Below, piece by piece: positions 16,263 to 50,663 of a DNA stretch of 64,000 nt; position 1 is the stretch's first letter; every line of letters starts with the position of its first letter. The position numbers and the translations under genes are program-made. The DNA is from Rhodocyclales bacterium (lineage in GTDB: Bacteria > Pseudomonadota > Gammaproteobacteria > Burkholderiales > Rhodocyclaceae). The stretch spans positions 1-64,000 of the forward strand of contig JAPLQY010000006.1 in NCBI GenBank assembly GCA_026399475.1, given 5' to 3'. The notes beneath the pieces were generated by a model that saw only the letters and a program-made list of their open reading frames with translations, was not told the origin of the DNA and did no database searches.

Positions 16263-16265
16263 GCG

Positions 16266-29728: not shown

Positions 29729-30106
29729 ATGAACGCAGAAACAGATGGAGCCGAAGGCTCCGCACGCAGGTCATTGATCGACATTTCGGTCGAAAGCTGG
29801 CGATTCGCCAGACTTTTTGCAAGAGTCCTTGGAAAGCTTGACGAGGCCGAAGCTCCTAGATATTCGAATCAGCTGCGCTATTTCGTCAAGAAGCTTGAAG
29901 ACGGACTGGACTCGGTCGGCTTGAAGCTCGTGAGCCTTGAAGGGCAACTTTACGATGCGGGAATGGCAGCGTCTCCTTTGAATATCGCTGATTTCGGGCC
30001 AGAGGATCGGCTGGTCGTGGATCAGATGATCGAGCCGATTCTCATGGGTCCCGACGGCCTCGTTAAAGGCGGCACCGTCATGCTGAAGAAGGTCGAAGCG
30101 AAATGA
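29729..30106 (+). CDS. Small protein in the GrpE position of the Hsp70 operon
   Basis: From ATG 29729 (GGGAG upstream) the product has 125 residues. A helical N-terminal half (SWRFARLFARVLGKLDEAEA) is followed by a short beta-rich tail (LVVDQMIEPILMGPDGLVKG, then VMLKKVEAK). The helix-then-small-beta order, the size, and the 4-bp overlap with the Hsp70 gene are what one would expect of a reduced nucleotide-exchange factor, but direct similarity to GrpE is weak. I treat it as a GrpE-like candidate only. Confidence 0.55.
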   Translation: MNAETDGAEGSARRSLIDISVESWRFARLFARVLGKLDEAEAPRYSNQLRYFVKKLEDGLDSVGLKLVSLEGQLYDAGMAASPLNIADFGPEDRLVVDQMIEPILMGPDGLVKGGTVMLKKVEAK

Positions 30107-32598
30107 AAAACTACGTGGGCATTGACCTTGGAACGACAAACAGCGCCATATGCAGCTATGACGGAGAGACTCTTCGACTATACAAGAGCACTGACACAAA
30201 TGATGTGACCCCTTCGGCCATCTTCATAGACCGCAGGGGTAATAAATACATTGGCAAGCGGGCATACGACAACGCAGCCCGCAGTCCTGACAACGCAGCG
30301 ACTCTTTTCAAGCGCTTGATGGGTACAAGCACGCCCATCAAGCTGCCGGCTGTTGACCTCGTCATGACTCCCGAGGAGTGCTCGGCTGAAATCCTTCGGG
30401 TCCTCTATGCCTATTTGCCAGAGGAAATCCGCAACGATCCAGAGACCGGGACGGTGATAACGGTTCCGGCGGCATTCAATCAGATGCAAAAGGATGCGAC
30501 GATGGCCGCTGCCGAAATGGCCGGCCTTGGAAAAGTGGCGTTGATGCAGGAGCCTGTTGCTGCCGTTATGAGCGTCATGCGCCATCGCAAAGGCGACGGC
30601 ATGTTCCTGGTCTATGACTTGGGAGGAGGAACCCTCGACATAGCCATCGCCCAGAGCATCAGCGGGCGCGTGAGCCTTTTGGCCCACGGGGGCATCGCAA
30701 TGTGCGGCGGGCGGGACTTTGACCGGATGCTGCTAGACAACGTCGTCAAACCATGGCTGTTGGACAACTTCGACTTACCGGAAGATTTTGCCTCGGACAA
30801 GCGCTACACGACACTCAAGCATATGGCAGTCTGGGCAGCTGAAAAGGCCAAGATTGACCTTTCCTCAAGCGAGGAGGCGGTCATTACCCTTGACGACAGC
30901 GAACTGCGAGTCAAGGATCTTTCCGACAAAGACGTCTATTTGGATATCTCCATTACCCGTTCGGTCTTTGACGAACTAATTGCTGAAAAGGTCGTTGAGT
31001 CCGTCGGCGCGGCAAGGGAGGCGATGGAAAAGGCAGGAGTTACTCCGCACGATATCGGCCGGGTTGTGTTTGTCGGGGGGCCTACCCAATATGAGCCGTT
31101 GCGCAAAAAAGTCGCCTTCGAGCTTGGCATTGCTCCTTCCACCGATGTGAATCCGATGATTGCAGTGGCCGAGGGCGCGGCAGTCTTTGCGGAATCCATC
31201 GATTGGGGTTCCCAGCATCGAGGCCGCAAGAGCGGACGTGGGGCAATAAGCGCGGGCGGGGGATTGGATCTCTCGTTCAACTACATGGCGCGAACTCCGG
31301 ACTCAAAGTCCAAGATCGTCACCAAGGTTGGAGGTAAAGTCCTTGACGGAGCAGCATTTCAGATCGATAGCTTGGACACTGGCTGGTCATCTGGGAAAAT
31401 CGCTCTCAAAGACGGAGCCGTTGTCGAGGTTCCACTGTCAAAGGCAGGCGAGAACCAATTCAAGATTTTCGTTTTTGATGCGGCAGGCGGGCCGATCAAG
31501 ATTGCGCAAGACAAAGTGTCAATCGCAAGAACGGCCGGACAAGTCGACGCTATTCCAGCCTCTCATTCAATCGGCGTCGAGGCGCGTGAAAAAATTGGCG
31601 GGCGCATCGTCCTAAGCTATCTCATCCGTGAGGGCGAGCAGTTGCCCAAGAAGGACAAAATGACCTTCAAGGCAGAGGAGTCGCTACGCGCAGGAGCCGC
31701 CAATTCGCTTAAGTTCAAGTTATGGGAAGGCGGTATCGAAGACCCGGTGACTGACAACCGATTCATTGGCTTGTTTGAAATTAACGGGACGGATTTTTCC
31801 GAAGGCGTCATTGCAAAGGGCGCCGAGCTGATTTGCGAATACGAAGTACTCGACTCGGGCAACATCATTTTGAATGTGACGGTGCCTTCAATCAGCGGAG
31901 CCTTCAAGAGCAGTCGCAGCTTGTATTCAAGCGAAGCGGGAAAGACCGACTTTACCAATGCATCAAAGCGTGTTGAGGAAGAATCTGAACGAGTCGGCGA
32001 ACGTCTCAACGAAATATCAACAAAGGTTGACGATCCAAGGCTGGACCAAGCTCGTGAGCGCTTGAGCAGAGCATCTGCGATAAAGACCGGAGAAAGCGAT
32101 CCGGAAATCGCCAAGCAGGCGATGGATGACATACAAGAAGCAAAAAAACTCATGGCTCTCGCGCGAAAGGAGCACTTGAAAGTTATTCGTCAGCTCGAAC
32201 TGGACAAGGCTGTGGAATTCTTTGAGGCAAATGTTCGCAAGCACGCAAGACCTGCGGAAGCCAGTTCCTTCGACAATTTGGGCAAAACTGCCCAACGGGC
32301 GATAGAAAATAATGGTGGCGATTTTGAAAGCCACCTTGACGAGTTGCGCGGCAAGAACTTCAGAATTTTGTGGCGGCAGGACTGGTTCGTCATCGACCGA
32401 TTCAAATGGCTTTCCGAGGACGCATATTTGTTCCCGGACGCCGCAGAGCATGCTCAGGTTTGCGCATTGGGCAAACAGGCTCTTCAAGCCAACGACATCG
32501 ACAAGCTGCGTGAGGTGGTTTATCACCTCGACTCGATCAGAATCAGTTCGGCGGGGGCCGACGATATGCTGACCAGCTCCAACATCTTGGTGGCCTAG
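30103..32598 (+). CDS. Hsp70-family chaperone with long C-terminal extension
   Basis: The 831-residue protein has a complete Hsp70 ATPase domain: VGIDLGTTNSAICSY (phosphate loop 1), VYDLGGGTLDIA (residues 170-181) and RVVFVGGPTQYEPLRKKV near residue 320. A substrate-binding-like beta domain follows (GGKVLDGAAFQIDS onwards). Instead of a normal lid there are about 250 residues of charged helices to the end. DnaK has about 640 residues, so this is a divergent, extended form and not the housekeeping copy. It is the second gene of a tightly packed plus-strand operon with an AAA+ ATPase and two J-like proteins. Confidence 0.88.
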   Translation: MKNYVGIDLGTTNSAICSYDGETLRLYKSTDTNDVTPSAIFIDRRGNKYIGKRAYDNAARSPDNAATLFKRLMGTSTPIKLPAVDLVMTPEECSAEILRVLYAYLPEEIRNDPETGTVITVPAAFNQMQKDATMAAAEMAGLGKVALMQEPVAAVMSVMRHRKGDGMFLVYDLGGGTLDIAIAQSISGRVSLLAHGGIAMCGGRDFDRMLLDNVVKPWLLDNFDLPEDFASDKRYTTLKHMAVWAAEKAKIDLSSSEEAVITLDDSELRVKDLSDKDVYLDISITRSVFDELIAEKVVESVGAAREAMEKAGVTPHDIGRVVFVGGPTQYEPLRKKVAFELGIAPSTDVNPMIAVAEGAAVFAESIDWGSQHRGRKSGRGAISAGGGLDLSFNYMARTPDSKSKIVTKVGGKVLDGAAFQIDSLDTGWSSGKIALKDGAVVEVPLSKAGENQFKIFVFDAAGGPIKIAQDKVSIARTAGQVDAIPASHSIGVEAREKIGGRIVLSYLIREGEQLPKKDKMTFKAEESLRAGAANSLKFKLWEGGIEDPVTDNRFIGLFEINGTDFSEGVIAKGAELICEYEVLDSGNIILNVTVPSISGAFKSSRSLYSSEAGKTDFTNASKRVEEESERVGERLNEISTKVDDPRLDQARERLSRASAIKTGESDPEIAKQAMDDIQEAKKLMALARKEHLKVIRQLELDKAVEFFEANVRKHARPAEASSFDNLGKTAQRAIENNGGDFESHLDELRGKNFRILWRQDWFVIDRFKWLSEDAYLFPDAAEHAQVCALGKQALQANDIDKLREVVYHLDSIRISSAGADDMLTSSNILVA

Positions 32599-32600
32599 CC

Positions 32601-34052
32601 GTGAGCCTTGAAAGCTGGCTTCCGATTGGCTTCCAGCTACCCGATGGTGCAATTTGCGGAAGGCCCCTTCATAGCGGGACAAATTGGCAGATCGTCGAGA
32701 CCGGCGGGGGTGGGCGGGCGCTGTTGGCTCATGAGGAGCTGACCAGCAAATGGGTGGAGTCAGGCTTGGTTGAGCACGGGGATTTGAAAGAGTCACTATT
32801 CGGCACGGAAAAAGTCTTCGAGGTTTCATGTGGAGCGAGCCAGGTGCTTGGCCCGCTTCCAGAATGCAATTCTCCTTCCACCAAGAGCGAAGCGTTGGCA
32901 TTTGCCACAGCACTGAAAGCCACTCGTGAGATCGACGAGGAAAGCGCATTGCAAGATGCCATCTATGTTGAGAAATTCACAAGGCTCCTACCTTCCTACG
33001 GGATCACCTCGCGCACTGACGACGATGTGGTCCTAGGATATTGGCTTACTGGTGGCGCGAGGGTTTCGGCCAAGTCTTTCCGCCGGCTGAGACAGATGCT
33101 TTCCTGGATGAGCGCAAGCCAATTGCGAGACGTCGTTCAGGCCGCAGGCATCGAAGTCACCGAAATCATGCCCACTGAGGAGAGCCAAACTTCGCCGGAC
33201 GCCAATGCAAAAGCCGAGGAAATTTCGGACAAGGCCCAAAAGGAGACCTTTTCCAAGCCGGCCGAGGATAAATCAAAGCGCGCTTTTGAACTGCCTGGCA
33301 GGCCTGAGCTAGAGGAGTTCTTCAACGAGCATGTGATTGACATCATTCTCAACAAGGAACGATACAAGGCTCTGGGCGTAGGCTTTCCGTCGGCTATCGT
33401 CCTTCATGGGCCTCCTGGTTGCGGAAAGACTTTTGCCGTCGAAAAACTTGTTGAATATCTTGGGTGGCCAAGCTTTCAAATTGACGCCTCAAGCGTGGCA
33501 AGCCCCTACATCCACGAAACCAGCCGCAAGGTCTCGGAGATGTTCGAGAAGGCCATGCAAAACGCGCCATCGGTTCTTGTCATCGATGAAATGGAAGCCT
33601 TTCTTGCTGACAGGGAAGCAGGGGGTGGCGGCAGTCACCACAGGGTAGAGGAGGTCGCCGAGTTCCTCCGTCGAATTCCAGAAGCAGCAAAAAACGAAGT
33701 TTTGATAGTCGCGATGACAAACCGGGTCGAAATGATCGATTCAGCCATCATGAGACGCGGTCGATTCGATCATGTAATCAAAGTCGACTTCGCAAGCGAG
33801 GACGAAATTAGGGCACTTCTTGAAAAGCTGCTATCGACACTCCCAATGGACAAAACCGTCGATCCTGCGCCATTGGCCAAAAAGCTGGCGGGTCGGCCGC
33901 TGTCGGATGTCGCATTCGTCGTGAGAGAGGGGGCCAGACTTTCAGCTCGCGCTGGGAAGGATCGGCTTTCGGCTGAATGCCTTATGGAAGCCCTCGACAC
34001 GGCGCCATCCCGTGACGACGAAAGCGGACACAACCGCATCGGCTTCGTGTAA
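32601..34052 (+). CDS. AAA+ ATPase (FtsH/Cdc48-like module) of the Hsp70 operon
   Basis: The 483-residue protein has an unrecognised N-terminal domain of about 230 residues, then a single classical AAA module: VLHGPPGCGKTFAVEKLVEY (Walker A near 270), VLVIDEMEAFLADREAG (Walker B near 325), MTNRVEMIDSAIMRRGRFDH (sensor 1 and arginine-finger region) and a C-terminal helical lid. It has no membrane helix and no protease domain, so it would act as an unfoldase or remodeller. It starts at GTG 32601, 2 bp after the Hsp70 stop. Together they resemble a disaggregase pair, although this is not ClpB. Confidence 0.88.
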   Translation: MSLESWLPIGFQLPDGAICGRPLHSGTNWQIVETGGGGRALLAHEELTSKWVESGLVEHGDLKESLFGTEKVFEVSCGASQVLGPLPECNSPSTKSEALAFATALKATREIDEESALQDAIYVEKFTRLLPSYGITSRTDDDVVLGYWLTGGARVSAKSFRRLRQMLSWMSASQLRDVVQAAGIEVTEIMPTEESQTSPDANAKAEEISDKAQKETFSKPAEDKSKRAFELPGRPELEEFFNEHVIDIILNKERYKALGVGFPSAIVLHGPPGCGKTFAVEKLVEYLGWPSFQIDASSVASPYIHETSRKVSEMFEKAMQNAPSVLVIDEMEAFLADREAGGGGSHHRVEEVAEFLRRIPEAAKNEVLIVAMTNRVEMIDSAIMRRGRFDHVIKVDFASEDEIRALLEKLLSTLPMDKTVDPAPLAKKLAGRPLSDVAFVVREGARLSARAGKDRLSAECLMEALDTAPSRDDESGHNRIGFV

Positions 34053-34064
34053 CGCGGCGGCCTC

Positions 34065-35426
34065 GTGTCAGACGAGTCGGAAGACAGGAAAAAGGGCAAG
34101 GGCTTCGCAGGCCTGTCCTCGCTTGTCTCCGATGTTTCCGAAGATATCGTCAGCGCGACGCCAAGCAGCGCTTCTGGTTCTTCGGGGACGCTTCCGCCAG
34201 AGCCAAAACCTCCGCAATCCAATTCGGAATCTACTTCGGCGCCACCTCAAGGACCCAACTCCCCCGCAGGTTCCCCGACAGGTTCGGGCGGCGGAACCAA
34301 GGTCGTATGGGGAATCATCGGGGGCGTTGTATTTCTTTTCTTAATCTCTTTGTCAGGCAAGAAAGAAGAAGTGGCTAGGCCGCCAACCGCATACACGGCG
34401 CCGGCTGCTGCGCCGGAGGTGGTAGCGCCGGTGGTGGCTGCTCCCGAGGCAACCTCTAGGTCAGAGCCTCAACAAGTTCCTCCTGCGATATCGGTTTCAA
34501 TCAACACCGACAAGCCGCCAGTTGGAAGGAGTCTTGTCCTAAATGATTCACAGCTGCGCTATTGCCTGTCTGAAAAGATTCGAATGCAGGCTATTGAGGG
34601 CATTTTCAGCAAAAACTCTCAGGACGAAATCAATAGATTTAACGCGCGGGTAGATGACTACAACTCTCGGTGCGGTGAATATAGGTATCGTCGCAGCGCC
34701 CTCGGACGAGCGACACAAGATGTGGAGTCCAATCGAGAGGCCATTGCAGCGGAGGCTAAGACTGTGTGGGTGAGGGAATCTCTGAAACTTGAGAGCCCGC
34801 CTGCTCCCGCGGAGACGAAGCAAACATCCACGCAAAAGGCGTCTCCCGAAAATGCAAAAGTCGCCAAGGAGCCTTCGAGTGACACTCTCACGTATGAAGA
34901 ACAATCATCCATTGAGGCTGCCTGCAACGTCGACAAACAGTTCAATGGACCTGCGGCATATAAGAGATGTGTTTCAAATAAGATCGCCGCGCTGAAAAAG
35001 GGGGCTCGAAGCATCGACCTGTCGGCCCTCAACTACGACGAAAAGAGTTCCATTGAGTCTTCATGCAACGTCGACAAACAGTTCAATGGTCCGGCCGCTT
35101 ACAACCGATGCTTGGCTAACAAACTTGCCGCGTTAAAAAGCGCGCCTCGAAGCATTGATTTATCTGGGCTCAACTACGACGAAAAGAGTTCCATTGAGTC
35201 TTCATGCAACGTCGACAAACAGTTCAATGGTCCGGCCGCTTACAACCGATGCTTGTCCAACAAGCTTGCAGCCCTGCGAACCGCGCCTCGTAACATTGAC
35301 CTTTCCGGGCTTAGCTACGATGAAAAGAGTTCCATTGAGTCTTCATGCAATGTTGACAAGCAGTTCAATGGGCCGGCTGCATACAACAAGTGCCAAGTTC
35401 GATTGCTGAAGCAACTTAAGCGATGA
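34065..35426 (+). CDS. Single-span membrane protein with four 47-residue repeats
   Basis: The 453-residue protein begins with the motif KGKGFAGLSSLVSDVSEDI, shared with the products at 37117 and 41558. It continues with a Pro/Ser-rich cytoplasmic linker, one membrane helix (VVWGIIGGVVFLFLISL) and an Ala/Pro-rich extracytoplasmic stalk. The conserved domain (PPVGRSLVLNDSQLRYCLSE to DDYNSRC.EYRYR) comes next. Its C-terminus adds four copies of a repeat with YDEKSSIESSCNVDKQFNGP and a second cysteine, two Cys per repeat. Topology suggests the repeats lie in the periplasm, with disulfides possible. GTG 34065 follows the ATPase gene by 12 bp. The function is unknown. Confidence 0.75.
   Translation: MSDESEDRKKGKGFAGLSSLVSDVSEDIVSATPSSASGSSGTLPPEPKPPQSNSESTSAPPQGPNSPAGSPTGSGGGTKVVWGIIGGVVFLFLISLSGKKEEVARPPTAYTAPAAAPEVVAPVVAAPEATSRSEPQQVPPAISVSINTDKPPVGRSLVLNDSQLRYCLSEKIRMQAIEGIFSKNSQDEINRFNARVDDYNSRCGEYRYRRSALGRATQDVESNREAIAAEAKTVWVRESLKLESPPAPAETKQTSTQKASPENAKVAKEPSSDTLTYEEQSSIEAACNVDKQFNGPAAYKRCVSNKIAALKKGARSIDLSALNYDEKSSIESSCNVDKQFNGPAAYNRCLANKLAALKSAPRSIDLSGLNYDEKSSIESSCNVDKQFNGPAAYNRCLSNKLAALRTAPRNIDLSGLSYDEKSSIESSCNVDKQFNGPAAYNKCQVRLLKQLKR
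34890..35404 (+). repeat. Four in-frame 141-bp tandem repeats
   Basis: Equivalent positions fall at 34899, 35040, 35181 and 35322, an exact period of 141 bp (47 codons). Copies 2 and 3 share a run of about 85 identical bases, while the first and fourth are more diverged. In-frame repeats of this kind change number by slippage or recombination and are typical of surface-exposed or binding proteins under diversifying pressure. Confidence 0.9.
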
Positions 35427-35451
35427 ATAACAGGAAATATTGGAAGAAGCA

Positions 35452-37104
35452 ATGAGCGACAAACCAGCGGCAGAGACCATTCTTCACAAGAATCCGTTTT
35501 GGGTTTTAGGAGTGACCACGCGTGACAACAGCAAACGCATCGTCGAGGTCGCTGAGGAAAAGGCGCTACATATCGATCACAACGTATGCCAGAAGGCTCG
35601 CTCGGACTTGACCAATCCAAGAACAAGGCTCGCTGCCGAAACGGCATGGATGCCAGGCGTCGCTCCGCGCATGGCGGAAAAACTACTGCGCTCTCTTGTC
35701 GAAGATCCTGTTGTTGCTCGCGCGGAAGGGGGGCTTCCCGAGCTTGCCCAAGCCAATCTGATGGCTTCCGCATTAGAGCTGGTATCGGAAAGCGAACAGG
35801 CGTCTTCTGTTGCTGAGTTCATTCGCGATTTCGCCTGGGTTGTCGAATCAATCGATCCAGATGATGTTCTTCGTGACATCAATGAGGACCGGGCAATTTC
35901 TGGATTTCCCGAAGTTCGCGCCAACGACCTCGTTGACGAACTCGCTTCTCGACGAAAGACATACCGGAATGTGCTCAAGGATCTGTTGGACTCGATGGCT
36001 CCCGAAAGGCTGATCGAAACGATGACTCAAACAGTCGACGACTCAACAGACGGTGGCGACTCGCACGGGCCGGCCCTGATAGACGAGTTGGTCGACAGCT
36101 ACGAGGTTGAGACTCAGGAGTTCTTGGAAAAGGAATCTGCCAACATTTCGACGCTGATAACGAATGCAAGGGCTGTCGCGACAAAAGGAGAGCAAGCAGT
36201 CTCGCCAGTCATCGACAAGATCGCCAAGGTCGCGCGCAATTGGGATCGAGTCGCCCAACCGATACAGCTGAGCTCGAAGTCACGAGGGAAAGCGCATATA
36301 CCCAGCCGAGATCTGGCCTACGAGCTTAGGAGCTTGGGTATTGATCTTAACAACGAGCACGGGATGCTCGGCCAGGCAGATCGAATGACCAGACTTCTCC
36401 GGGAACTATTCGCAGAGTTGCCGGAGGTGGCCGAGAAGCTAAACGAAGACGCGGAGGCAATTGCCGGACTTCGGCAAAAAGCTACGGAGCGGGAAAAGCA
36501 AAACGACGAGTGGGCACGAAACATCACATTCAGTGCAGAGGTTGGCGTGATGTTTAAGGACGAGTTGAGCATTTCTCCAAAAGGTGTCACTTGGAAAGGA
36601 CGCAATTACCCCCTAGAAGAAATTAAAGGGGTCAGCTGGGGTGGGGTGAAACATTCAGTAAACGGAATCCCGACGGGAACCAACTACACAATTGGGATTG
36701 GCGACAGCAAGGGCAGCATAACCATTGAGCTACGTAGAGAAGCCACCTACTCAAAATTCATCGACGCGCTGTGGCGTGCGGTATGCGTTCGTTTGATGCT
36801 CGACATGTTGGGCGCGCTGCAAGAAGGCCGTTCATTTAATTTTGGAGAAATCGCAGTCGAGGATACCCATGTGACCCTCGTCAAGCACAAGTTTCTCGGG
36901 GCCAACGAACGGGTCAGGCTCCCTTGGAGCGCCGTTCATGTATGGAGCGCCGACGGCAGCTTTGTGATCGGAGCTCAGAATGACAAGAAGATTTACAGCT
37001 CGGCCTCATACATTCACGTTTGGAACGCGCATATCCTTGAACACGTCGTTCGCGGCGGCTTCAAAAAGGGGATATCCAAATTGAGCGACTATTTGAAGGA
37101 TTAG
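35452..37104 (+). CDS. J-like (HID) protein with conserved C-terminal domain, copy 1
   Basis: From ATG 35452 (GGAAG upstream) the product has 550 residues. Residues 10-70 read NPFWVLGVTTRDNSKRIVEV, then EEKALHIDHNVCQKA and LTNPRTRLAAETAW. This follows the J-domain order (NPYEVLGV, helix II, HPD, helix III, LSDP.RR), with HID where HPD is expected. A helical middle follows. The last 170 residues (LSISPKGVTWKGRNYPLEEI onwards) are beta-rich and shared with the protein at 38711, possibly a PH-like fold. J-domain proteins stimulate Hsp70, so a functional tie to the Hsp70 gene is likely. HID/HPD equivalence is inferred from the pattern. Confidence 0.72.
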   Translation: MSDKPAAETILHKNPFWVLGVTTRDNSKRIVEVAEEKALHIDHNVCQKARSDLTNPRTRLAAETAWMPGVAPRMAEKLLRSLVEDPVVARAEGGLPELAQANLMASALELVSESEQASSVAEFIRDFAWVVESIDPDDVLRDINEDRAISGFPEVRANDLVDELASRRKTYRNVLKDLLDSMAPERLIETMTQTVDDSTDGGDSHGPALIDELVDSYEVETQEFLEKESANISTLITNARAVATKGEQAVSPVIDKIAKVARNWDRVAQPIQLSSKSRGKAHIPSRDLAYELRSLGIDLNNEHGMLGQADRMTRLLRELFAELPEVAEKLNEDAEAIAGLRQKATEREKQNDEWARNITFSAEVGVMFKDELSISPKGVTWKGRNYPLEEIKGVSWGGVKHSVNGIPTGTNYTIGIGDSKGSITIELRREATYSKFIDALWRAVCVRLMLDMLGALQEGRSFNFGEIAVEDTHVTLVKHKFLGANERVRLPWSAVHVWSADGSFVIGAQNDKKIYSSASYIHVWNAHILEHVVRGGFKKGISKLSDYLKD

Positions 37105-37116
37105 GGACTTTCAATC

Positions 37117-37797
37117 ATGGTCGATGGCAATAAGAAGGAAAAAAAAGGCTTTGCTGGGCTCAATCAGCTGGTGTCCGATGTCGAACCAGTGACGCCTGCT
37201 CCCGAGCATGAGGTCAAAACGGATAACACTCGGCAGGCTGAACCTGCGAAAGCGGAGCCAACGCAACAGATATTCTATGGAACGCAGCAGTCTGGCCCAA
37301 GTTCAAACGGAAAATACTGGGCAATCGGCATAGGAGTATTGGTTCTCCTGATCGTGATCGGCAATAGTGATTCAAACAAATCAACGCCGAATCGAAGTGT
37401 CGCCACCGCGCCAAGCTATTCGCCGCCTCCCGCCTATGAGGCCCCAGCATATGTTCCGCAGGCTCCTGCTCCAGCATATGCTCCACCGGAGGCAATAGCC
37501 CCGCTAGCAGTAGATGACGAGGAGATTCCGCCAGTTGGCAGCGGACTGGCATTCAACGACGCTCAAATGCGCTATTGCCTATCTGAAAAGATTCGCGTTG
37601 CAACGTGGCAGGGCTATATCAACAATTATTCGGAAACGTCAGTTGGAGCATTCAATGAAGCAGTCGACGACTACAACGCGCGATGCTCCCATTTCCGCTA
37701 TAGAAGCGGAGCACTTGAAAGAGTTCGCGGTCAAGTTGAACAGAATCAATACACGCTACAACGACAGGGAATGGACAAAGCGCAAGCCAATCCCTGA
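37117..37797 (+). CDS. KGFAGL membrane protein, copy 2
   Basis: This 226-residue paralogue starts KKEKKGFAGLNQLVSDVE and has one membrane helix (YWAIGIGVLVLLIVIG). A Pro/Ala/Tyr-rich stalk leads to the conserved domain: PPVGSGLAFNDAQMRYCLSE, then SVGAFNEAVDDYNARCSHFR. It has none of the tandem repeats of copy 1. It begins 12 bp after the first J-like gene, as copy 3 begins 15 bp after the second, so J-like and membrane genes come in pairs. Confidence 0.72.
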   Translation: MVDGNKKEKKGFAGLNQLVSDVEPVTPAPEHEVKTDNTRQAEPAKAEPTQQIFYGTQQSGPSSNGKYWAIGIGVLVLLIVIGNSDSNKSTPNRSVATAPSYSPPPAYEAPAYVPQAPAPAYAPPEAIAPLAVDDEEIPPVGSGLAFNDAQMRYCLSEKIRVATWQGYINNYSETSVGAFNEAVDDYNARCSHFRYRSGALERVRGQVEQNQYTLQRQGMDKAQANP

Positions 37798-37860
37798 GCT
37801 GCCTGCGAACTGAGTCAACCCGAGGACTTCTAACATCAAGCGGACTGGAGAAGAAAAGAA

Positions 37861-38664
37861 ATGACATCCGATGACACAAACACTGCCGACGGGGAGAAGG
37901 TCGACAAGGCAGTTGAGGCAATTGCTGCCGGCAATCTCGCAGCGGCCAAGAGTCTTCTTCTGACAGTTATAAAGAACTCGCCAGAGCAATACTCTCATCA
38001 GACTGCGACGCAGGAAGGCGATCTGATCATTCGCTTTTGGGACCAGCAAGAGTTCCTTCATTATGTGACTTGGAGAGAGCCGACTCAAAAGATATTCTGG
38101 AACGTGTCAGTTTATCCGCGCGCCTTCTTTTACTTGGGTTTCATCGGAGTGGCAGAGCGCGATTACCCAACAGCTATCGGGTATCTGGATAAGGCGGCTG
38201 CGTTGGAACCAACGAACCCGAAGATAACGCTTGAAAAAGCACAGGCTCTGATGGGATTGAAGAGGACTGTCGAGGCGCTAAAGCTCTTCGAACAGGTTTC
38301 CACAATCGGTCCATTCGTCAGCGGATCTGATGTGGCCCGTGGCCTCAGGGGCAGAGGCTTTATTTTGATAGAACTGGGGCGAGTGGCGGAGGCCGAGGAG
38401 GCTTTGAATGCGTCGTTGAAGTTGGACCCTAACAGCGATGTGGCAAAGAACGAATTGAAATACCTCGCAAACCTAAAAGGCGGAGGGTCTCATGCGCCAA
38501 TGAAACTGAAAGTCACGACTAGCGGAAAGAATCTCGCGTTATGCGTCATATGCGGAGAGAAATTCGAGCATGGGTCAATTGTCGATTCAATCGGCTCCTC
38601 CGGCGTGATCTGCGATAGATGCAAGAACAAATCGACAAAAAAGCCATGGCAGTTTTGGAAGTAG
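37861..38664 (+). CDS. TPR protein with C-terminal zinc ribbon
   Basis: The 267-residue protein has TPR-like helices in the middle (FFYLGFIGVAERDYPTAIGY, later ALEPTNPKITLEKAQALMG and ARGLRGRGFILIELGRVAEA). The end carries a CVICGEKFEHG...GVICDRCK four-cysteine ribbon. TPR segments bind chaperone partners, often Hsp70 tails; whether this one does is unknown. It lies inside the Hsp70 operon and reads in the same direction. Confidence 0.68.
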   Translation: MTSDDTNTADGEKVDKAVEAIAAGNLAAAKSLLLTVIKNSPEQYSHQTATQEGDLIIRFWDQQEFLHYVTWREPTQKIFWNVSVYPRAFFYLGFIGVAERDYPTAIGYLDKAAALEPTNPKITLEKAQALMGLKRTVEALKLFEQVSTIGPFVSGSDVARGLRGRGFILIELGRVAEAEEALNASLKLDPNSDVAKNELKYLANLKGGGSHAPMKLKVTTSGKNLALCVICGEKFEHGSIVDSIGSSGVICDRCKNKSTKKPWQFWK

Positions 38665-38710
38665 CAAGCTTTCCATGAACGCTCCTAAATTGAGATTGAG
38701 ATAAGCGGAG

Positions 38711-41542
38711 ATGGAACGCCGATATCTAAATTGCAAGATATGCAACTATGAAGGCCATTTCTATTCTGAACGGCCGATTTATGCAAAATGGAGAGTCTAC
38801 AAGACCGATGCAGGCGCCTTGTTTCCGGTACTTAACGAAAGCATGTGGTGCCCTGATTGCGAAAAGCCGACGATGTCGGAGAAATGGCCCACCGCGGAGG
38901 AGATTGAAAGCAGTCTCACTGACTATGCAGAAGCCTTTGCGGCTTTTCAAAAAGGAGTCGGATATGAAAACAAGAGCTTGGCGCGATTGCATGAGAGCTT
39001 CATAGCATCCGCTCAGACTTGGCGAAGCTTTGCTTCACAGCCGAGAAGAACAAGGTGCCTCATATGCGGCTCTAGTCAATTACTTTCCCACCAAGGCGAA
39101 GGCCCATTTTATTTTTTACATAGGTCATGCTCGCAACCGTTGTTCATCAAAGAATCACCTGACACCGGGTTGCGTCTTTCTCCTAAGAACTGGTGGGTCA
39201 TGAGCGAAGGCGTCGAGTTAGATATCCACTCTTACACGACAGATGGATTGCCCGCTGGAGACACTCTTGAAAAGTTTAGAAAGGAATATCCGGAAACCGC
39301 TTCGATTGTCGAGAAGGCAACCAGAGAAGAAATTGCTAAGCAACGAGGAGTTCATTCAACACAGCCGATTGATGGTGAGGATGATTTAGCTGATTTTTTC
39401 AGGCTGTTTCGTATGTTCGTCTCCAAAGAGTTAGCCGGGGTTTGGCTGCCTAACGAACCGGGCAATTTTAAGGACGACTATCCGGAAATTTATCCATTGG
39501 TTTGCCATTACGTAAGGCAAACGGTAGTGAAATCAATCAGAGAAAATGAAACTGCCGTTCAAGGCTCTGCGAGCTCTGGTCCCTTGAAAGCCATCTGCTT
39601 CAAGTGCGGCCTTTCAAAGGACAAGTCATTCGCCGTTTGCGGTTCATGCGGAATTCAGCCAAAGACAGAATCCGAGCTCGCTATGTCACTGGTTTTCAGT
39701 GAACATATTTCACCGCCGCAACTGCTGCGCTATTTCGCGCTCGACATCAAAAATGGCCAGCATATTGATGTCGATCCTGAGACTTACGCAAAAGCCCGAG
39801 TCGCGCTTGCTGACCAGCAGCTAATGACTGCGCTCCGGGACAGGGAATCAGAGACTCAACGACATCTTGGCCCGAAAGCAGGAACGAGCGGGGCTCAACT
39901 TTTTGTTGGGGGAAAAGAGAGCTCAATCCACAGAACTGCTTTTTGGGTGCTGGGGGCGACGGTTAGGGATAGCAGTAAGCGAGTAATAGAGTTGGCCGAT
40001 GAGAGAGCGTTGCATATTGACCAAGACCTTTGCCAAAAAGCCCGGTCGGCATTGACCAATCCAAGAAGCAGGCTGGCAGCGGAGATGGCTTGGCTGCCAG
40101 GGGTATCCCCAAATAAGGCGAACGAAGCTGCCTTGGCTTTATTAAGCGATCCTGCTTTTGTCCTAAGCGACCATGGCCTTCCTCTACTAGCCAGAGCAAA
40201 CCTCATGGCAAGCGCTATGGGGGCAATAAATGAAATGTCGGAACCATCGGCGGTATCCGACTTCATTTTGCAGATAGCGCAGGTAGCGGAAGAAATTCGT
40301 CCAGATCAGATTCTTCGCGACATCAACGAAGACCGCACCGTGTCTGGCTTTCCGGTAATACCAAGTGTCGAGCTTATTGAAACGGCGCTTGTCGAACGCA
40401 TCGAAACATATAAGAGGGCGATTCGAGACGCGTTGAACAATTTGTCTCCGACCAATCTTGTGAAGACGATGACGCTTGCTTCGGGCAAGGCGACAAACAA
40501 TGGAGAAATGCATGGTCCGGTTCTTTTCGACGAGCTTGTCGATACATATGAATCGGAAACACAAGAATTCTTGGTTAAGGAGGCCGAGAACGTCTCGCTC
40601 CTTGTAAAGAAGACAATGGAAGTCGCGCCAAAAGGCGAAGCCGCAGTCGGGGTGGCGCTGGACCGAATTGAAAATGTGGCTCGCAATTGGGGGAACGTCG
40701 CTAGGCCGATTCAAATCAGCAAAAAAGCGCGAGGGATCGTTCATCGTCCAAGCAGAGACATGGCCGGCGAGATGCGGGACTTGGCCGGCGACCTTTACCA
40801 GAAGCACGACATGACGGCGGCAGCTCGCCGCATAACCAACTTTCTAGCTGAACTTTTTGTTGCCCTGCCTGAGTTTGCGGAACTACTGGAAAAGGACACG
40901 GAGGCTCTCGCCACTATCGAACGCCGAGAGAAGCTTGCCGAGTCAAAGCGCGGCGACTTTGCAAAAGAGATTGCCTTTGAAGAGCGGATTGGAGCCATAT
41001 TCAAGGACACACTTGCCATTTCCACTGCGGGCATCCGCTGGAACAAAGACAACTATCCGCTGGACACCATAACCCGAGTCAGATGGGGCGGAATCCGTCG
41101 CTCGGTCAATGGCGTGCCGCAGGCGACTGAATACACCATGGCTTTCGGGGACGACCACGACGAGGTCGTGGTCAGCACAAGGGACGAAAGACTTTATTCG
41201 TCGTTTGTGGACAAGCTCTGGAAGGCGGTTTGTGCCCGCATCATGACGGATATCCTCAATGCCTTGAAGGATGGCAAAGAGATTTCTTTCGGAGACGCAG
41301 TGGTCGATGATACCGGCGCCAGCATATTGGAAAGACACACCTTCAAGGCGGATGTCATCGTCTATTGCAAATGGTCGGAGATGACAATCAGCAGCTCCAA
41401 TGGCGAGTTTGTGATGGGAATGGCAGGCAAAAATACCTATTCGAACGCGCCCTACATAAATGGCCGCAACAGCCATCTATTGGAGCATCTCGTGAGATTG
41501 GCGAAGCAGCGCGGAGTCGAAAGACTTAGCGACCTTCTATAG
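38711..41542 (+). CDS. Large zinc-ribbon plus J-like (HID) protein, copy 2
   Basis: The 943-residue protein has an N-terminal extension of about 400 residues with three putative zinc ribbons (C8/C11/C47/C50; CLICGSSQLL; CFKCGLSKDKSFAVCGSCG). From about residue 405 it is a paralogue of the protein at 35452 along its whole length: TAFWVLGATVRDSSKRVIEL, ERALHIDQDLCQKA, LTNPRSRLAAEMAW, a helical core, and the beta-rich C-terminus with IRWNKDNYPLDTITRVRWGG. HID again replaces HPD. The duplication of a J-like/membrane gene pair suggests two client or location-specific arms of one machine. Confidence 0.72.
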   Translation: MERRYLNCKICNYEGHFYSERPIYAKWRVYKTDAGALFPVLNESMWCPDCEKPTMSEKWPTAEEIESSLTDYAEAFAAFQKGVGYENKSLARLHESFIASAQTWRSFASQPRRTRCLICGSSQLLSHQGEGPFYFLHRSCSQPLFIKESPDTGLRLSPKNWWVMSEGVELDIHSYTTDGLPAGDTLEKFRKEYPETASIVEKATREEIAKQRGVHSTQPIDGEDDLADFFRLFRMFVSKELAGVWLPNEPGNFKDDYPEIYPLVCHYVRQTVVKSIRENETAVQGSASSGPLKAICFKCGLSKDKSFAVCGSCGIQPKTESELAMSLVFSEHISPPQLLRYFALDIKNGQHIDVDPETYAKARVALADQQLMTALRDRESETQRHLGPKAGTSGAQLFVGGKESSIHRTAFWVLGATVRDSSKRVIELADERALHIDQDLCQKARSALTNPRSRLAAEMAWLPGVSPNKANEAALALLSDPAFVLSDHGLPLLARANLMASAMGAINEMSEPSAVSDFILQIAQVAEEIRPDQILRDINEDRTVSGFPVIPSVELIETALVERIETYKRAIRDALNNLSPTNLVKTMTLASGKATNNGEMHGPVLFDELVDTYESETQEFLVKEAENVSLLVKKTMEVAPKGEAAVGVALDRIENVARNWGNVARPIQISKKARGIVHRPSRDMAGEMRDLAGDLYQKHDMTAAARRITNFLAELFVALPEFAELLEKDTEALATIERREKLAESKRGDFAKEIAFEERIGAIFKDTLAISTAGIRWNKDNYPLDTITRVRWGGIRRSVNGVPQATEYTMAFGDDHDEVVVSTRDERLYSSFVDKLWKAVCARIMTDILNALKDGKEISFGDAVVDDTGASILERHTFKADVIVYCKWSEMTISSSNGEFVMGMAGKNTYSNAPYINGRNSHLLEHLVRLAKQRGVERLSDLL

Positions 41543-41557
41543 ATCCCGAGAGAAGAA

Positions 41558-42274
41558 GTGTCCGACAAGAAAAACAACACGGCAAAGGGATTCGCGGGTT
41601 TGGGCTCGATGGTTTCGGAAATCGACAATGATCTCGTTGAATTGGAAAGAATCGAGTCATCTCCGAAGGCGGCTCCGACATTAGAGAAGCCGGCTACTAC
41701 GCCGCCAAGCACAAGGCCACAAGCCGCCAAGCAAAATATGGAGTCTGGAGCATCTGAAAGACCCAGAGCTAGTGGCTGGAAATGGGCGTTAATCGCCCCA
41801 ATAGGGGTTGTGGGGACTGTTCTGGTCGGGCTTATCTACATCGGAACAGGGAGAAAGGAGACTCCCCCGCCCAAGAGCTCCTCATATTCGCCAACACCCG
41901 CATATTCAACGGCTCCGGTTGCTCCTGCCCCGGCTGCCAAGCCATCGTTTACGCCGCCCACAATGCCAGCTCGGACAGAAGCAGATTTCATAAACGAGGA
42001 ACGGCCTCCTGTCGGCAATGGGCGTGTCTTCAACGCTTCCGAAATTCGTTACTGCCTATCAGAGAAGATCAGGCTGGAAGGAATGAAGGGGCTGGTGGAC
42101 CGCTACTCGCAGGCATCCGTGAGGGGCTTTAACAGTTACGTCAGCGATTACAACACGCGATGCTCGCATTTCAAGTATCGGGATGGGCTTTTGGAGGAAG
42201 TCAAAAGGGGAGTCCAATCACGACGGAAGAAGCTCAGGAGCGAGGGTGTTAGCCGCGCTCTGGAGAATCATTAG
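41558..42274 (+). CDS. KGFAGL membrane protein, copy 3
   Basis: The 238-residue paralogue starts NNTAKGFAGLGSMVSEIDND at GTG 41558. It has one membrane helix (WALIAPIGVVGTVLVGLIYI), a Ser/Pro-rich stalk and the conserved domain PPVGNGRVFNASEIRYCLSE, then SVRGFNSYVSDYNTRCSHFK. The N-terminal motif lies on the cytoplasmic side in all three copies, so it is well placed to dock to the Hsp70, AAA+ or J-like proteins. Confidence 0.72.
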   Translation: MSDKKNNTAKGFAGLGSMVSEIDNDLVELERIESSPKAAPTLEKPATTPPSTRPQAAKQNMESGASERPRASGWKWALIAPIGVVGTVLVGLIYIGTGRKETPPPKSSSYSPTPAYSTAPVAPAPAAKPSFTPPTMPARTEADFINEERPPVGNGRVFNASEIRYCLSEKIRLEGMKGLVDRYSQASVRGFNSYVSDYNTRCSHFKYRDGLLEEVKRGVQSRRKKLRSEGVSRALENH

Positions 42275-42279
42275 GCCAA

Positions 42280-42801
42280 GTGAAGATTATTTTCGTGAAA
42301 ATGCCTCGAACCGTTTCTCTTCTTGCGATTGTTTGCATCGAAGGTTCTGCAATAGGGGGAGACCTGCCCGATTCCAGAATTACTCCCGGAGCAATCGACA
42401 CTTCCGTCACTCAGGAGAGTATCCGCAGGACTGTGTGCGTCAAAGGCTATACGAAGACGGTCAGGCCGCCGGCCCACTACACCAACGCTCTCAAAAAGCA
42501 CCAGATACGACAATACGGCTACGACGACCGAAATCCCAAGGACTACGAGGAAGATCATCTAATCGCGTTGGCCATCGGAGGACATCCGACCGATGAGCGA
42601 AACCTGTGGCCCCAGCCGCGTAAAAGCGAGTGGGGAGCTGACAAAAAAGATCAACTCGAATTCGTCTTATACAAAATGGTTTGTAATGGAGAAATCAAGC
42701 TTGCCGACGCCCAAAGGGAGATGGCTCATGATTGGATTTCAGCCTGGAAGCAATATGTTGTCCCAAGCCGGCGCTCTTACAAGTTTAGACCGGTTGATTA
42801 G
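42280..42801 (+). CDS. Putative secreted HNH-like nuclease
   Basis: The 173-residue protein has an N-terminal hydrophobic signal (MKIIFVKMPRTVSLLAIVCI). The motif YEEDHLIALAIGGHPTDERN with NLWPQP follows, the DH...N core of a compact HNH domain (Asp92, His93, Asn108). Exported proteins of this kind occur on plasmids and phages. With the signal peptide it would act in the periplasm, for example on incoming DNA. It starts at GTG 42280, 5 bp after the third membrane protein, so it is part of the operon. Nuclease activity is inferred. Confidence 0.65.
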   Translation: MKIIFVKMPRTVSLLAIVCIEGSAIGGDLPDSRITPGAIDTSVTQESIRRTVCVKGYTKTVRPPAHYTNALKKHQIRQYGYDDRNPKDYEEDHLIALAIGGHPTDERNLWPQPRKSEWGADKKDQLEFVLYKMVCNGEIKLADAQREMAHDWISAWKQYVVPSRRSYKFRPVD

Positions 42802-42822
42802 CGCGGCAGCCAAGGGGTGAGA

Positions 42823-43722
42823 ATGATTCAGCTTGACGGCTCGGAAGTCGCGCGATGGGCATCAAAGGCTTCTGAGGCAGATTTGGCAGCGCTTGCAGGA
42901 GCTGAATACTCAGACGATGACGACGTTTGGATTGTTTGCGGCGCAGGCCCGACGGGCATCTCGATCTCAAAGGAGGGCCAAGAGTATTCTGTGCGCCGCC
43001 CGTTCAACTTCTTCTTCTCGGGAACATTCTTTCTTGAAGAGGCGCCGGGCCATAGTGTCGATGCACTTATCAAAGGATCTTTGTCGGTCGGCGAACGAAA
43101 AATTTCAGCGGCCAATGAGCATTTGCGCGGTCTCGGATTTTCTGTGTCGGAGCTTGGCGGGGACACGGTCGCGCTATTCCTCTGGGATATTGTCAAAGCC
43201 TTTGAAGAGCGCCAGGTCGCGCCGGATGACGGGCAATGGAACAGGCTTCACGACATCCTGAGAAACGGCTCCGCTTCCGTGATGCGAGTCGGGGCAAAAT
43301 TGGTTACCCAATGGATCGCGCATTCTGAGGAAGCAAATGGAGGCATCTTTGATGTTTATCGCCGAGTGCTTCTGGCATTTCTATACAGACACACCGGACA
43401 GCTTGAAAAGGCACTGCAAGTCAGTTCGATTGTCGAGTTTCCGCAAAGTCGAATGATGGGTGGCAGCTCAAGCGTGGCAGTTCTTTGCACCACAAGAGCC
43501 GCGGCTATGATGGACATGGCTGAACTTCAGCCAAGCAAACGCTCTGAGCTATTGAAGAACGCGCGGCTGACTCTCAACAAGGCGAATGCGATAAGCGGTT
43601 CTGACTCTGATGAAATTCGCGAAACATACAGCCGTATGAAAAAGCTAGACCAACAAAATGAGAGCGCGCTCCAAAAAGAACGAGAGGGCAATCAGATTCG
43701 GGAAGCCGGAAGATTGCCATGA
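42823..43722 (+). CDS. Unrecognised helical protein ending the Hsp70 operon
   Basis: From ATG 42823 (AAGGGG upstream) the product has 299 residues. An alpha/beta N-terminal part (VWIVCGAGPTGISISKEGQE) is followed by TPR-like helices (YRRVLLAFLYRHTGQLEKAL onwards) and a charged C-terminus. I recognise no catalytic motif. It is the last plus-strand gene and faces a convergent FtsZ-like gene 63 bp on. Confidence 0.6.
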   Translation: MIQLDGSEVARWASKASEADLAALAGAEYSDDDDVWIVCGAGPTGISISKEGQEYSVRRPFNFFFSGTFFLEEAPGHSVDALIKGSLSVGERKISAANEHLRGLGFSVSELGGDTVALFLWDIVKAFEERQVAPDDGQWNRLHDILRNGSASVMRVGAKLVTQWIAHSEEANGGIFDVYRRVLLAFLYRHTGQLEKALQVSSIVEFPQSRMMGGSSSVAVLCTTRAAAMMDMAELQPSKRSELLKNARLTLNKANAISGSDSDEIRETYSRMKKLDQQNESALQKEREGNQIREAGRLP

Positions 43723-43785: not shown

Positions 43786-44508
43786 TCAAACGCTGAGTTC
43801 TGTGGCGTTATTCAGCACACCACGGATGCGCTCTGCGATACGACGATCGATCATGCCGATGGCTGATGCCGCATCCAAGTCGCCTAAGTCCTCTGACAAC
43901 TCTTCATTGGACACGATCAGTATCTGGTCGGCATCATGCTCCAACTTCTTGATTGCAGCGGGTACCTTTCGCTGCCGAACCGATTCGTACTCAAATGGAG
44001 TTATTGCGACCACCACAACGGTTGGCACGTTTGCTTCCCGCGCCATCCGGACCACGATGGAAGCGACGGCGCCACTGAACTGACCCCCCAGGCCTGTTAC
44101 AAGAACGACCATGTCTGCGCCGGTAAGCAAGTTTTTCAGCGTAACGCGTTGGCGTAAGGCCATAACGCGGGCAGCACCTAATGGTGCCAGCGGCAGTGCT
44201 CGTATCGGTCGCATGCCAGGTACTGCTCTGCTGGTGACACGCGCCAGTACCGGATTACCCAAGTCGACAAGGATGAAATCAGGCAGCAGTTTCGCTCCCT
44301 CAAGAACGCCGCTCGCCCGGGCTGCCAAGACAACATTGCAGCCAGCACCGCCCACGCCAATCACCTTTACTGACTTCGTGCTGCCTTGACGGCCCGTTGA
44401 ATGACAGCAATCAGCAAGCTCGGTGATTGAATCCGCCCATGTAGGCAATTCAACGGGAACACCAAGATCATCAACGCCATCCTCATTCACGGACTCTTGT
44501 CTATCCAC
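43786..44508 (-). CDS. FtsZ-like GTPase-domain protein
   Basis: The 240-residue protein resembles the FtsZ nucleotide-binding half: VKVIGVGGAGCNVVLAARAS (residues 47-66), a VDLGNPVLA strand, LLTGADMVVLVTGLGG and NVPTVVVVAITPFEYESVRQ. The signature loop, GGGTGTG in FtsZ, is replaced by GLGGQFSGA, and the C-terminal activation domain with the catalytic T7 loop is missing. It probably binds nucleotide but is unlikely to form normal treadmilling filaments with full GTPase activity. It could interfere with host FtsZ or serve plasmid-like segregation. Confidence 0.75.
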   Translation of the reverse strand: MDRQESVNEDGVDDLGVPVELPTWADSITELADCCHSTGRQGSTKSVKVIGVGGAGCNVVLAARASGVLEGAKLLPDFILVDLGNPVLARVTSRAVPGMRPIRALPLAPLGAARVMALRQRVTLKNLLTGADMVVLVTGLGGQFSGAVASIVVRMAREANVPTVVVVAITPFEYESVRQRKVPAAIKKLEHDADQILIVSNEELSEDLGDLDAASAIGMIDRRIAERIRGVLNNATELSV

Positions 44509-46298: not shown

Positions 46299-47023
46299 AA
46301 TGAAATACTCCTTGATCTAGCGGCACGACTGCGGGCCACATCCACGTACCCATACCCCACATACTTGCTATGCCTATAGCAGGCATACCAGCCATACCCC
46401 TACACTGGCTGCTACCTGTACTGGCTATGCTGGGCATACTGTCTACATGGCTACGGCCTACAGTGCTGTACTTAGCTATATTTACTTACGTGCACTTTTC
46501 GACCAGCACGGCAATCCACGAGAGTGGCGCCGGTAGTGGCCTTGAGTGCGGCTGAGTCGCCAAGTGAAGGTCGCGAGTAATTTGCACCCTTGTCATCAGC
46601 GGCAGTAATTCGGTGAATTACTTAGCTGAAAATTGCGCAATTGGATGCGGATTTTTCAGAATTGTCGGTTACCTTGCAGCGCCGAATGCCGACCTGCAAA
46701 GCATCTGCTCAGATATGTCCGGTAGCGCCCTTGCTCAACTCGGCGGCCAGTAGCGGTCGATCATCAGTCCAAAGCCAGAGGGCAGGTTGGTGGAATGTGC
46801 GATGCAAGCGTGCATGCATGCAATTCTGCAATTCGCATCTTCTGAATGGGTGTCTGGCGCGGCTCGCCGCAACCAAGACTTGGGGGAAATGGTGTGGTCG
46901 GCAACCTATGCCGCCATGAACCCTTTGGTTTTCTAGATGCGGGCTGACAGATGGGCGTCCAATGGCGGGGCCACCACCAGACACCCATGCCTGCGTTGCT
47001 GCGCAGGGACTAATTCAGGCCGA
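46299..47023. other. Gene-free repeat-rich region, candidate origin
   Basis: No convincing gene is found in 725 bases. Bases 46321-46500 have many short related words (CCATACCCC twice, GCTATGC, GGCATAC) and a hairpin ATGCCT-atagc-AGGCAT. At 46801-46823 lies a 23-bp segment that recurs with 20 matches at 47962-47984. The position between replication-type genes fits an origin or partition region. Confidence 0.45.
46801..46823 (+). repeat. Direct repeat copy A (GATGCAAG...GCATGCATGCAA)
   Basis: GATGCAAG, three variable bases and GCATGCATGCAA form a 23-bp unit. The second copy, at 47962-47984, differs at three central positions. The two flank the gene at 47024-47875, one at each side, which suggests binding sites for a protein of the replication module. 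Confidence 0.6.
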
Positions 47024-47875: not shown

Positions 47876-47961
47876 GTTGTGTTCTCCAAACTTAGTGGGC
47901 TGGCACGCCCTGGAGTCGAAATCGTGACCCCGGGCTCTGCCGTCAAGCTATTTGCAGATGC

Positions 47962-47999: not shown

Positions 48000-48019
48000 C
48001 GCCGACGTGTCGTTTGCCG

Positions 48020-50604: not shown

Positions 50605-50663
50605 ACGACGTATAGCAAAGCGGAGAACTGCATGGGCACTGAATTGTGACAAGACTCAACATA

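Follow-up and report, generated by a model that had tools for sequence, protein, structure and literature searches.

Among published systems, the nearest to the locus considered here are the GAP1-N2 GTPase systems, which part of the account by Kaur et al. (2020, PMC7159879) presents as predicted conflict systems with HSP70, GrpE and DnaJ-FNIII proteins and with membrane and wall-binding parts, centred on DO-GTPases and on GAP1 with FNIII proteins, and found mostly in actinobacteria and firmicutes. The locus is an operon of a Rhodocyclales bacterium (assembly GCA_026399475.1) that occupies positions 29729-43722 of the window, that is, the whole analysed stretch of 64,000 nucleotides at positions 1 to 64,000 of contig JAPLQY010000006.1. 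Its conserved core consists of five families: a GrpE-like small protein, a divergent Hsp70, an AAA+ ATPase, a J-like protein that lacks the HPD motif, and a single-span membrane protein with a KGFxGL tag (hereafter KGF protein). An HSP70, a GrpE, a DnaJ-domain protein and membrane and wall parts are shared with the GAP1-N2 systems as that part of the paper describes them, whereas its section on the HSP70 theme contains neither this AAA+ protein nor the KGF family. Moreover, Pfam and NCBIfam show no GTPase or FNIII family in the ten operon proteins searched, with no GAP1 model run by name and the flanks not searched.

Other described systems share single elements with the operon. In the CoCoNuT systems of type III, as given in part of PMC11090510, the Hsp70-like CnuD is fused or linked to McrB/McrC-type proteins with predicted RNA targeting; an Hsp70-like ATPase and a defence context are the common points, whereas Pfam, PADLOC and NCBIfam found neither an McrB-like GTPase nor McrC among the ten operon proteins. 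The excerpt of PMC12169576 on bNACHT25 indicates that a J protein can take part in phage sensing, but there the partners are host DnaJ and a NACHT protein. The Hsp70-ClpB bichaperone and the transmissible locus of stress tolerance (tLST), offer the combination of Hsp70 with AAA+ and a mobile chaperone island. In contrast, the AAA+ protein of the operon has one recognised AAA domain, nearest to the FtsH/PAN type, and not the two-module Hsp100 architecture of ClpB, ClpG or ClpK, and Pfam found no Hsp20, ClpK or YfdX family in the ten operon proteins.

Zorya is a wall-anchored inner-membrane defence machine, and the idea of such a machine is what the operon has in common with it; Zorya itself is, as annotated, a neighbour of the core in one locus (L010), and no Zorya family matched the ten operon proteins in PADLOC. 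The AAA+ protein also resembles IetA (PADLOC 3.3e-26; 88.4 bits with the NCBIfam IetA model, whose cut-off is 510), but the IetA ATPase pairs with the serine protease IetS, whereas the operon has no protease family according to Pfam. The mitochondrial import motor consists of a membrane-tethered J protein, Hsp70 and a GrpE homologue, includes an HPD-less J-like partner and has no AAA+ protein; the likeness to it is claimed here without homology beyond the Hsp70, J and GrpE superfamilies.

With DnaK-DnaJ-GrpE, the operon shares an Hsp70 ATPase domain with intact motifs, a candidate counterpart of the substrate-binding domain (SBD), and putative GrpE-like and J-like partners encoded together. 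It differs by the absence of HPD from its J-like proteins, an extra stretch in the Hsp70, the AAA+ and wall-linked membrane proteins, and a patchy, mobile distribution. Because the ordinary grpE-dnaK-dnaJ cluster of the same genome is encoded on a different contig (C42), the operon represents an extra machine; a replacement for the host dnaK cluster was considered and rejected, as that cluster is present elsewhere in the genome. The initial annotation had stated that the set is neither ordinary DnaKJ-GrpE nor ClpB, and the results agree with both exclusions, the first by the missing HPD and the cluster on C42, the second by the single AAA stretch and its FtsH, PAN and CDC48 relatives.

The same annotation had suspected that the set is undescribed. 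No named system with this gene set occurs in PADLOC 2.0.0, Pfam or NCBIfam, and no description of it was found in the open-access literature among the matches listed, in agreement with that suspicion. When the ten operon proteins were compared with PADLOC 2.0.0, only the AAA+ protein matched (nine models, E up to 1), apart from a weak match of the Hsp70 (E 0.0028).

Five gene families kept together

The genes for Hsp70, AAA+ and J-like protein form one run on one strand (at most ~1.8 kb between AAA+ and J-like) in 32 loci, namely the window, L008-L012, L024-L026, L028-L033, L035-L041, L044-L049, L151 and L153-L155, and the KGF gene often sits between those for AAA+ and J-like protein. At 29 of the 32 loci the small gene is visible, always followed by Hsp70 and AAA+ (29/29); at L029, L035 and L047, where it was not seen, the stretch starts inside or at the Hsp70 gene. 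Because the core recurs in 32 loci and its order is constant, the arrangement is more than chance, and that the conserved module is real is close to certain.

Conservation of the set in other genomes had been proposed as a check in the initial annotation. It was found for five families across the 32 loci, some of them in distant bacteria, and not for all eleven genes: those for the TPR, HNH-like and 301-amino-acid (aa) proteins, as well as the first ~290 residues of J-like protein 2, have no tblastn match (1e-4) in the other system loci (a database that also contained L115-L119, second copies of viral contigs), and are thus best seen as local accessories. The HNH-like gene was rejected as an effector, since it is without a match in the other system loci and common elsewhere; its relatives appear in 52 plasmid records.

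The hosts of the core are proteobacteria, bins of other phyla, plasmids and prophage-type contigs. With the J-like query, 13 plasmid records and 22 loci in species genomes were obtained, together with 7/369 genomes of the class (own genome counted, two of the seven weak), and the J-like gene was present in 0/30 same-genus and 1/6 same-family relatives. The Hsp70 query retrieved five contigs of a virus collection, and the J-like alignment found the identical five; the Hsp70 query also matched 39 phage records, the best 20 of which cover 43-44% of the query and were taken as ordinary DnaK. The small-protein query matched 4/398 genomes of the phylum, own genome counted, one of them as a 43-residue match with stops, and a single-protein scan of the species-genome contigs gave no relative. 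A DNA query with Hsp70 and AAA+ was positive in 2/5426 E. coli genomes, a search on DNA only that may miss distant copies: of the two, HeN100 carries the complete five-gene core and NH-21 a remnant (L050), in which a shortened AAA+ gene, KGF and J-like remain beside IS1 elements. In the set of species-genome contigs, the Hsp70 lies within the stretch for 18/22 loci; the other four (L022, L023, L027, L034) are truncated by a contig edge a short way upstream of J-like or KGF.

Comparison of the Hsp70 genes revealed near-identical copies at the DNA level (L008/L009/L025, ~99% or more; L035/L036, 100%; four more pairs, at least 95%). At 85% identity the Hsp70s make 17 clusters, a greedy count that contains fragments where the gene is split, includes loci lacking AAA+ and predates the addition of L151-L155. 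Hsp70s 86-93% identical to the Desulfopila copy stand on contigs labelled Geomonas, Kiloniella, Acidobacteria, Puniceicoccales (Verrucomicrobia) and Thermoflexus, several of which are metagenome bins with possible binning errors; the Desulfopila and Geomonas proteins are 90.6% identical, and neither record is labelled as a metagenome-assembled genome.

Smaller sets were also encountered. Plasmids of Sinorhizobium and Aminobacter have three-gene sets of J-like, small protein and Hsp70 genes, one of which (L052) adjoins a pair annotated as ATP-dependent endonuclease and UvrD helicase. In two chromosomal stretches (L149, L150), a KGF gene is accompanied by a weak J-like gene and by a third, small one. 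A family of 214 aa that starts with MGFLSNLFGG (L008, 17664-18308, and relatives) comes after the J-like gene at several loci; L149 and L150 have it too. One Mesosutterella genome has two partly broken regions (L042, L043) with several J-like genes, doubled small protein-Hsp70 pairs and, by our reading, repeated transposase-like genes.

Chaperone-type proteins of the core

The Pfam match of the Hsp70 spans residues 5-364, and its ATPase motifs are invariant in 5/5 aligned sequences. The protein begins with this nucleotide domain, followed by an extra, beta-rich stretch of ~90 residues (our own reading), an SBD-beta-like part and a helical C-terminus. The SBD-like part scored 27.8 against the DnaK/HscA pair of the same genome, a value that 0/199 column shuffles reached (maximum 24.4). 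The C-terminal halves of 14 Hsp70s gave no Hsp70-type Pfam match among the matches listed (25 of 34 families), and a profile of this half found no meaningful relative among PDB sequences; a match to YfdX in one of the 14 (E 0.057) was taken as noise.

The small protein, aligned in 28 rows, is conserved as the first gene. The initial annotation had assigned it to GrpE by position only; its place is as stated, but the likeness extends to sequence, as comparison with the GrpE profile gave 30.9, which 0/199 column shuffles reached (maximum 22.9). Pfam GrpE matched 13 of the 28 members, all weakly (best E 0.0057, below the cut-off), and gave no match for the protein of the window; PDB sequences provided no meaningful relative of the GrpE-like profile. 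Elsewhere, a second and weaker GrpE match that adjoins a short J-domain match was noted in G429, G444 and other genomes of the phylum, probably belonging to a different extra Hsp70-type set.

The AAA+ protein has one AAA stretch (266-396), and its best NCBIfam relatives are FtsH, PAN and CDC48, the FtsH family being matched at 4.6e-36 with 124.7 bits against a cut-off of 600. A protease domain was not seen in it, and Pfam shows no protease family in the operon. IGF stands near the C-terminus in 26 of the 29 copies compared, the exceptions being L038 (FGF), L039 (LGF) and the fragment L035. The IGF loop of ClpX docks on ClpP, and the tail may be analogous to this loop, a resemblance that serves as a lead only.

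The two J-like proteins of the window are 46-47% identical to each other and accordingly constitute one family, as had been annotated. Their N-terminus scored 22.0 against a J-domain profile, which 0/199 shuffles reached (maximum 16.6). Pfam DnaJ did not match the window copies, and no match was seen for the 32 members among the matches listed (25 of 35 families); the PDB sequences likewise contained no meaningful relative of the J-like profile. For the remainder of the protein, weak matches to DUF6585 were obtained in 6/32 members, and we suspect candidate PH-like domains there. The zinc-ribbon part of J-like protein 2 is 37-46% identical in long J-like proteins of 12 distinct loci (15 rows, of which three come from contigs present in duplicate). 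All in one operon, the Hsp70, J-like and GrpE-like proteins are likely to form a functional unit.

Probable wall-linked membrane proteins and the KGFxGL tag

The KGF proteins combine a KGFxGLxxLxS tag at the N-terminus with one span and with a periplasmic domain whose two Cys are invariant in 12 aligned rows. All three copies of the window have the tag as KGFAGL and one hydrophobic span, consistent with the single family of single-span proteins first described; the spans were located with a simple hydrophobicity window, and those of L045, L046, L048 and L049 are below its threshold. A regular expression for the tag gave 49 matches in 945 kb of system loci versus 0 in 360 kb of control, which, for an expression built from seen examples, shows specificity and not discovery.

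The periplasmic domain was found in 5/274 genomes of the class, all five J-positive, and in 9/72,556 plasmid records, all nine among the 13 J-positive ones. In seven of these nine (Sinorhizobium) the match is the fused J-like gene itself, judging from two records examined; a separate KGF gene was present only in Shewanella and Aeromonas, and the J-positive plasmids of Polaromonas, Vibrio and two Aminobacter were missed at that sensitivity. Among the 32 loci, the domain was recognised in 27, and that of L012 lies on the adjoining stretch L013.

In four loci with no visible AAA+ gene (L042, L051, L052, L053), the span and the KGF periplasmic domain are part of the J-like protein, and the fusion of L053 comprises a peptidoglycan-binding sequence too. 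These fusions tie the J-like and KGF proteins together as one unit. The KGF tails of several loci have wall-binding or Cys-repeat domains, and that the Hsp70 machine is connected with a membrane protein linked to the wall is very probable. Matches of the KGF profile among PDB sequences were to peptidoglycan-binding parts and led no further. The Cys-repeat tail of KGF protein 1 also matched CPW_WPC, a Plasmodium domain (25.1 bits, Pfam cut-off 23; no single stretch passes alone), which is probably a cysteine-repeat coincidence.

The tails differ even between close copies. The Hsp70s of L008 (Shewanella plasmid) and L025 (Aeromonas simiae) are 99.3% identical and the front parts of their KGF proteins 77.6%, whereas the KGF tails are 49% identical over 221 aligned residues and end in different cysteine repeats. 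Such differences in an outward-facing part fit an arms race.

As to the tag, it is found inside the L042 fusion and is absent in those of L051-L053, so that docking of the KGF protein on the J-like protein is the simplest inference, to which we give an even chance. Alternatively, KGFxGL would be a substrate tag for the AAA+ protein or Hsp70 and no dock, and the machine would regulate how abundant or how active its own membrane proteins are. The tag is carried as well by a 349-aa and a tail-anchored 250-aa membrane protein, the first related to KGF marginally at most (a one-way match of 76 aa at E 6e-6 with the low-complexity filter off) and the second not similar to it at E 1; furthermore, the AAA+ family suggests threading. 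Hsp70 sites are typically a basic residue followed by hydrophobics, and the tag resembles them. However, it persists where no AAA+ gene is seen in the stretch (L042, and as variants L149 and L150), even if one could lie elsewhere in those genomes, and the J-like fusions of L051-L053 lack it; both facts point to the J-like protein, and a substrate tag appears the less convincing proposal, though one with some claim.

Gene neighbourhoods, putative role and the surrounding island

The initial annotation had left defence, stress survival and a contact-dependent apparatus as options; of the three, the gene neighbours favour defence as the probable one. HmaA/HmaB occur near L044, HamA/HamB (Hachiman) near L030 and L041, and type I restriction-modification genes near L041, while, as annotated, L010 contains ZorA and BREX-2 genes, L049 RdrB and a DptF fragment, and L008 and L009 Tn7-like genes. 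Flanks of the prophage type comprise phage tail genes (L045), a head-tail/portal gene (L047), ParB and primase (L046) and integrases (L048). At 1e-10, 384 PADLOC families were matched by 92 flank proteins and 10 by 92 control proteins, counts that refer to families and not to proteins and are inflated by helicases; the flank set was made of 92 open reading frames of at least 230 aa from 18 loci, and the control of 92 random ones out of 205 from 18 stretches at one fixed position. On this evidence of gene neighbourhood, an antiviral role is somewhat probable, and a mobile, dedicated Hsp70 machine at the inner membrane, most likely phage-protective, is a reading to which we give about equal belief and doubt. 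Phage resistance, like the substrate, is what we infer.

The machine might work as follows. The KGF protein would be held in the cell wall and sense or touch envelope events, and its cytosolic KGFxGL tag would dock it on the J-like hub, which would bring the Hsp70, with the GrpE-like factor recharging it; the protein so engaged might then be threaded or pulled by the AAA+ ring. If the mitochondrial import motor is taken as a model, phage proteins that enter or are inserted in the membrane could be pulled on or taken apart, a pulling mechanism that is offered tentatively. Since the five-gene core contains no recognised nuclease or toxin family, direct remodelling is likelier than suicide. The fullest form of the proposal is speculative: the design of an Hsp70 import motor would have been turned into an antiviral entry guard, in which wall-anchored membrane proteins with interchangeable outer tails would detect phage at the envelope and pass it on by way of the shared KGFxGL tag; the J-like hub, together with Hsp70, the GrpE-like factor and the AAA+ ring, would draw in phage proteins that cross or insert in the inner membrane and dismantle them. 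If true, the kinds of bacterial immunity would gain a complete chaperone machine in which no enzyme toxin is recognised. It would also be a natural case in which a J-like protein is physically joined to a sensor in the cell wall, and a bacterial counterpart of Hsp70 motors tethered to membranes; the five-gene set is small enough for testing in a laboratory strain.

Several observations weigh against this reading. The putative GrpE, J and SBD assignments go back to weak profile matches, and HPD occurs in 0/32 J-like rows (the D is kept in 25/32), so that the usual mode of stimulation may not apply to this Hsp70. Defence-type matches (reverse transcriptase, TIR) also arose in the control set. 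Neither the near-identical copies (L008/L009/L025; L035/L036) nor the neighbours of L030 and L041 count as independent cases, and L009, L035, L039, L050 and L052 are split or remnant loci. Two J-positive genomes (G369, G393), which may or may not belong to the class sample, were not among its KGF-domain matches; the G393 stretch carries the domain, and 12 kb of G369 does not. Nor was the domain recognised in four of the 32 loci: in L010 and L033 the tagged membrane protein is devoid of it, the L040 stretch breaks off behind J-like, and L039 has an AAA+ gene and a J-like protein with a span, and neither a recognised KGF domain nor the tag. For docking on the J-like protein in particular, the absence of the tag from three of the fusions and its presence on the two other operon membrane proteins are unfavourable. 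Finally, the stretches of L149 and L150, the former of which ends ~1.1 kb upstream at the contig end, have no dedicated Hsp70, AAA+ or GrpE-like gene, which suggests a housekeeping ancestor, and the reduced set may be the ancestral, perhaps housekeeping, form.

This last point bears on the possibility that the operon is a chaperone machine for surviving heat or envelope stress, a reading in favour of which the KGF and J-like pair of these chromosomal stretches, with no dedicated Hsp70 there, can be cited. The parts of the core are of the chaperone type, the mobile chaperone islands (tLST) set a precedent, and genes annotated for mercury lie beside L009 and a cadmium regulator beside L008. Yet defence genes are neighbours in several loci and prophage-type contigs act as carriers, the spread is patchy (the two E. 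coli genomes and the empty set of same-genus relatives), the families Hsp20, ClpK and YfdX are missing from the ten operon proteins, and exposed tails that differ are unexpected for a housekeeping chaperone; a stress function is accordingly considered unlikely. More improbable still is a contact or conjugation device, whose periplasmic tails would meet plasmids, pili or neighbours while the chaperone motor aids or blocks transfer. Six of the 13 J-positive plasmid records are typed as conjugative, and the variable tail repeats and the membrane and wall link would suit it, but the core resides on chromosomes, Tn7-like elements and prophage-type contigs as well, and contains no secretion or pilus family recognised beyond a weak TPR-type match.

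In the operon itself (Table 1), the eleven open frames initially annotated were all present at their place and strand, with gaps of -4 to 63 bp for the starts used here. The Hsp70, AAA+ and TPR/zinc-ribbon identities were upheld by Pfam and, for the last, by a C-terminal CxxC...CxxC; the "HNH-like" label fared less well, the likeness being weak and below the Pfam cut-off.

Table 1. Genes of the operon, with window positions (aa, amino acids)
Gene	Positions	Strand	Description
GrpE-like small protein	29729..30106	+	125 aa; core, first gene
Divergent Hsp70	30103..32598	+	831 aa; core; Pfam HSP70 7.3e-55
Classic AAA+ ATPase	32601..34052	+	483 aa; core; Pfam AAA 1.8e-30; C-terminal IGF tail
KGF membrane protein 1	34065..35426	+	453 aa; core family; KGFAGL tag, one span, periplasmic two-Cys domain (refound 34506-34766), Cys-repeat tail
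J-like protein 1	35452..37104	+	~550 aa; core; no HPD; analysed from start 35455
KGF membrane protein 2	37117..37797	+	226 aa; core family
TPR protein with C-terminal zinc ribbon	37861..38664	+	267 aa; accessory; Pfam TPR_19 2.3e-15
J-like protein 2	38711..41542	+	943 aa; N-terminal part, zinc-ribbon part, J-like body
KGF membrane protein 3	41558..42274	+	238 aa; core family
HNH-like protein, putatively secreted	42280..42801	+	173 aa; accessory cargo; Endonuclea_NS_2 E 0.0015, below cut-off
301-aa protein	42817..43722	+	accessory; no Pfam match at 0.01, none in PADLOC

The operon belongs to an island of ~45 kb, bordered on the left by riboflavin synthase (4900-5637) and on the right by RibBA (50745-51851), and with an integrase at 5808-7037; these three were read from frame translations, with no family search. 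No exact repeats of at least 14 bases were found between 5500-5900 and 46000-50800, and hence no att sites within these ranges. At 9455-19775, the retron noted initially is seen as a retron-type reverse transcriptase (PADLOC RT_VI 6.1e-80), followed on the opposite strand by HmaC-HmaB-HmaA, a complete set in which each gene has E = 0 (PADLOC). The short tubulin/FtsZ-like gene at 43786-44508 (Pfam 4.8e-14) is convergent with the operon; tubulins are part of some GAP1-N2 systems, and this gene was rejected as a component, having no match in the other loci. At 22911-25417, a trypsin-like protein with a weak LmuA match (2.6e-8) adjoins a GHKL/HSP90-type ATPase gene, the two possibly forming a small defence pair.

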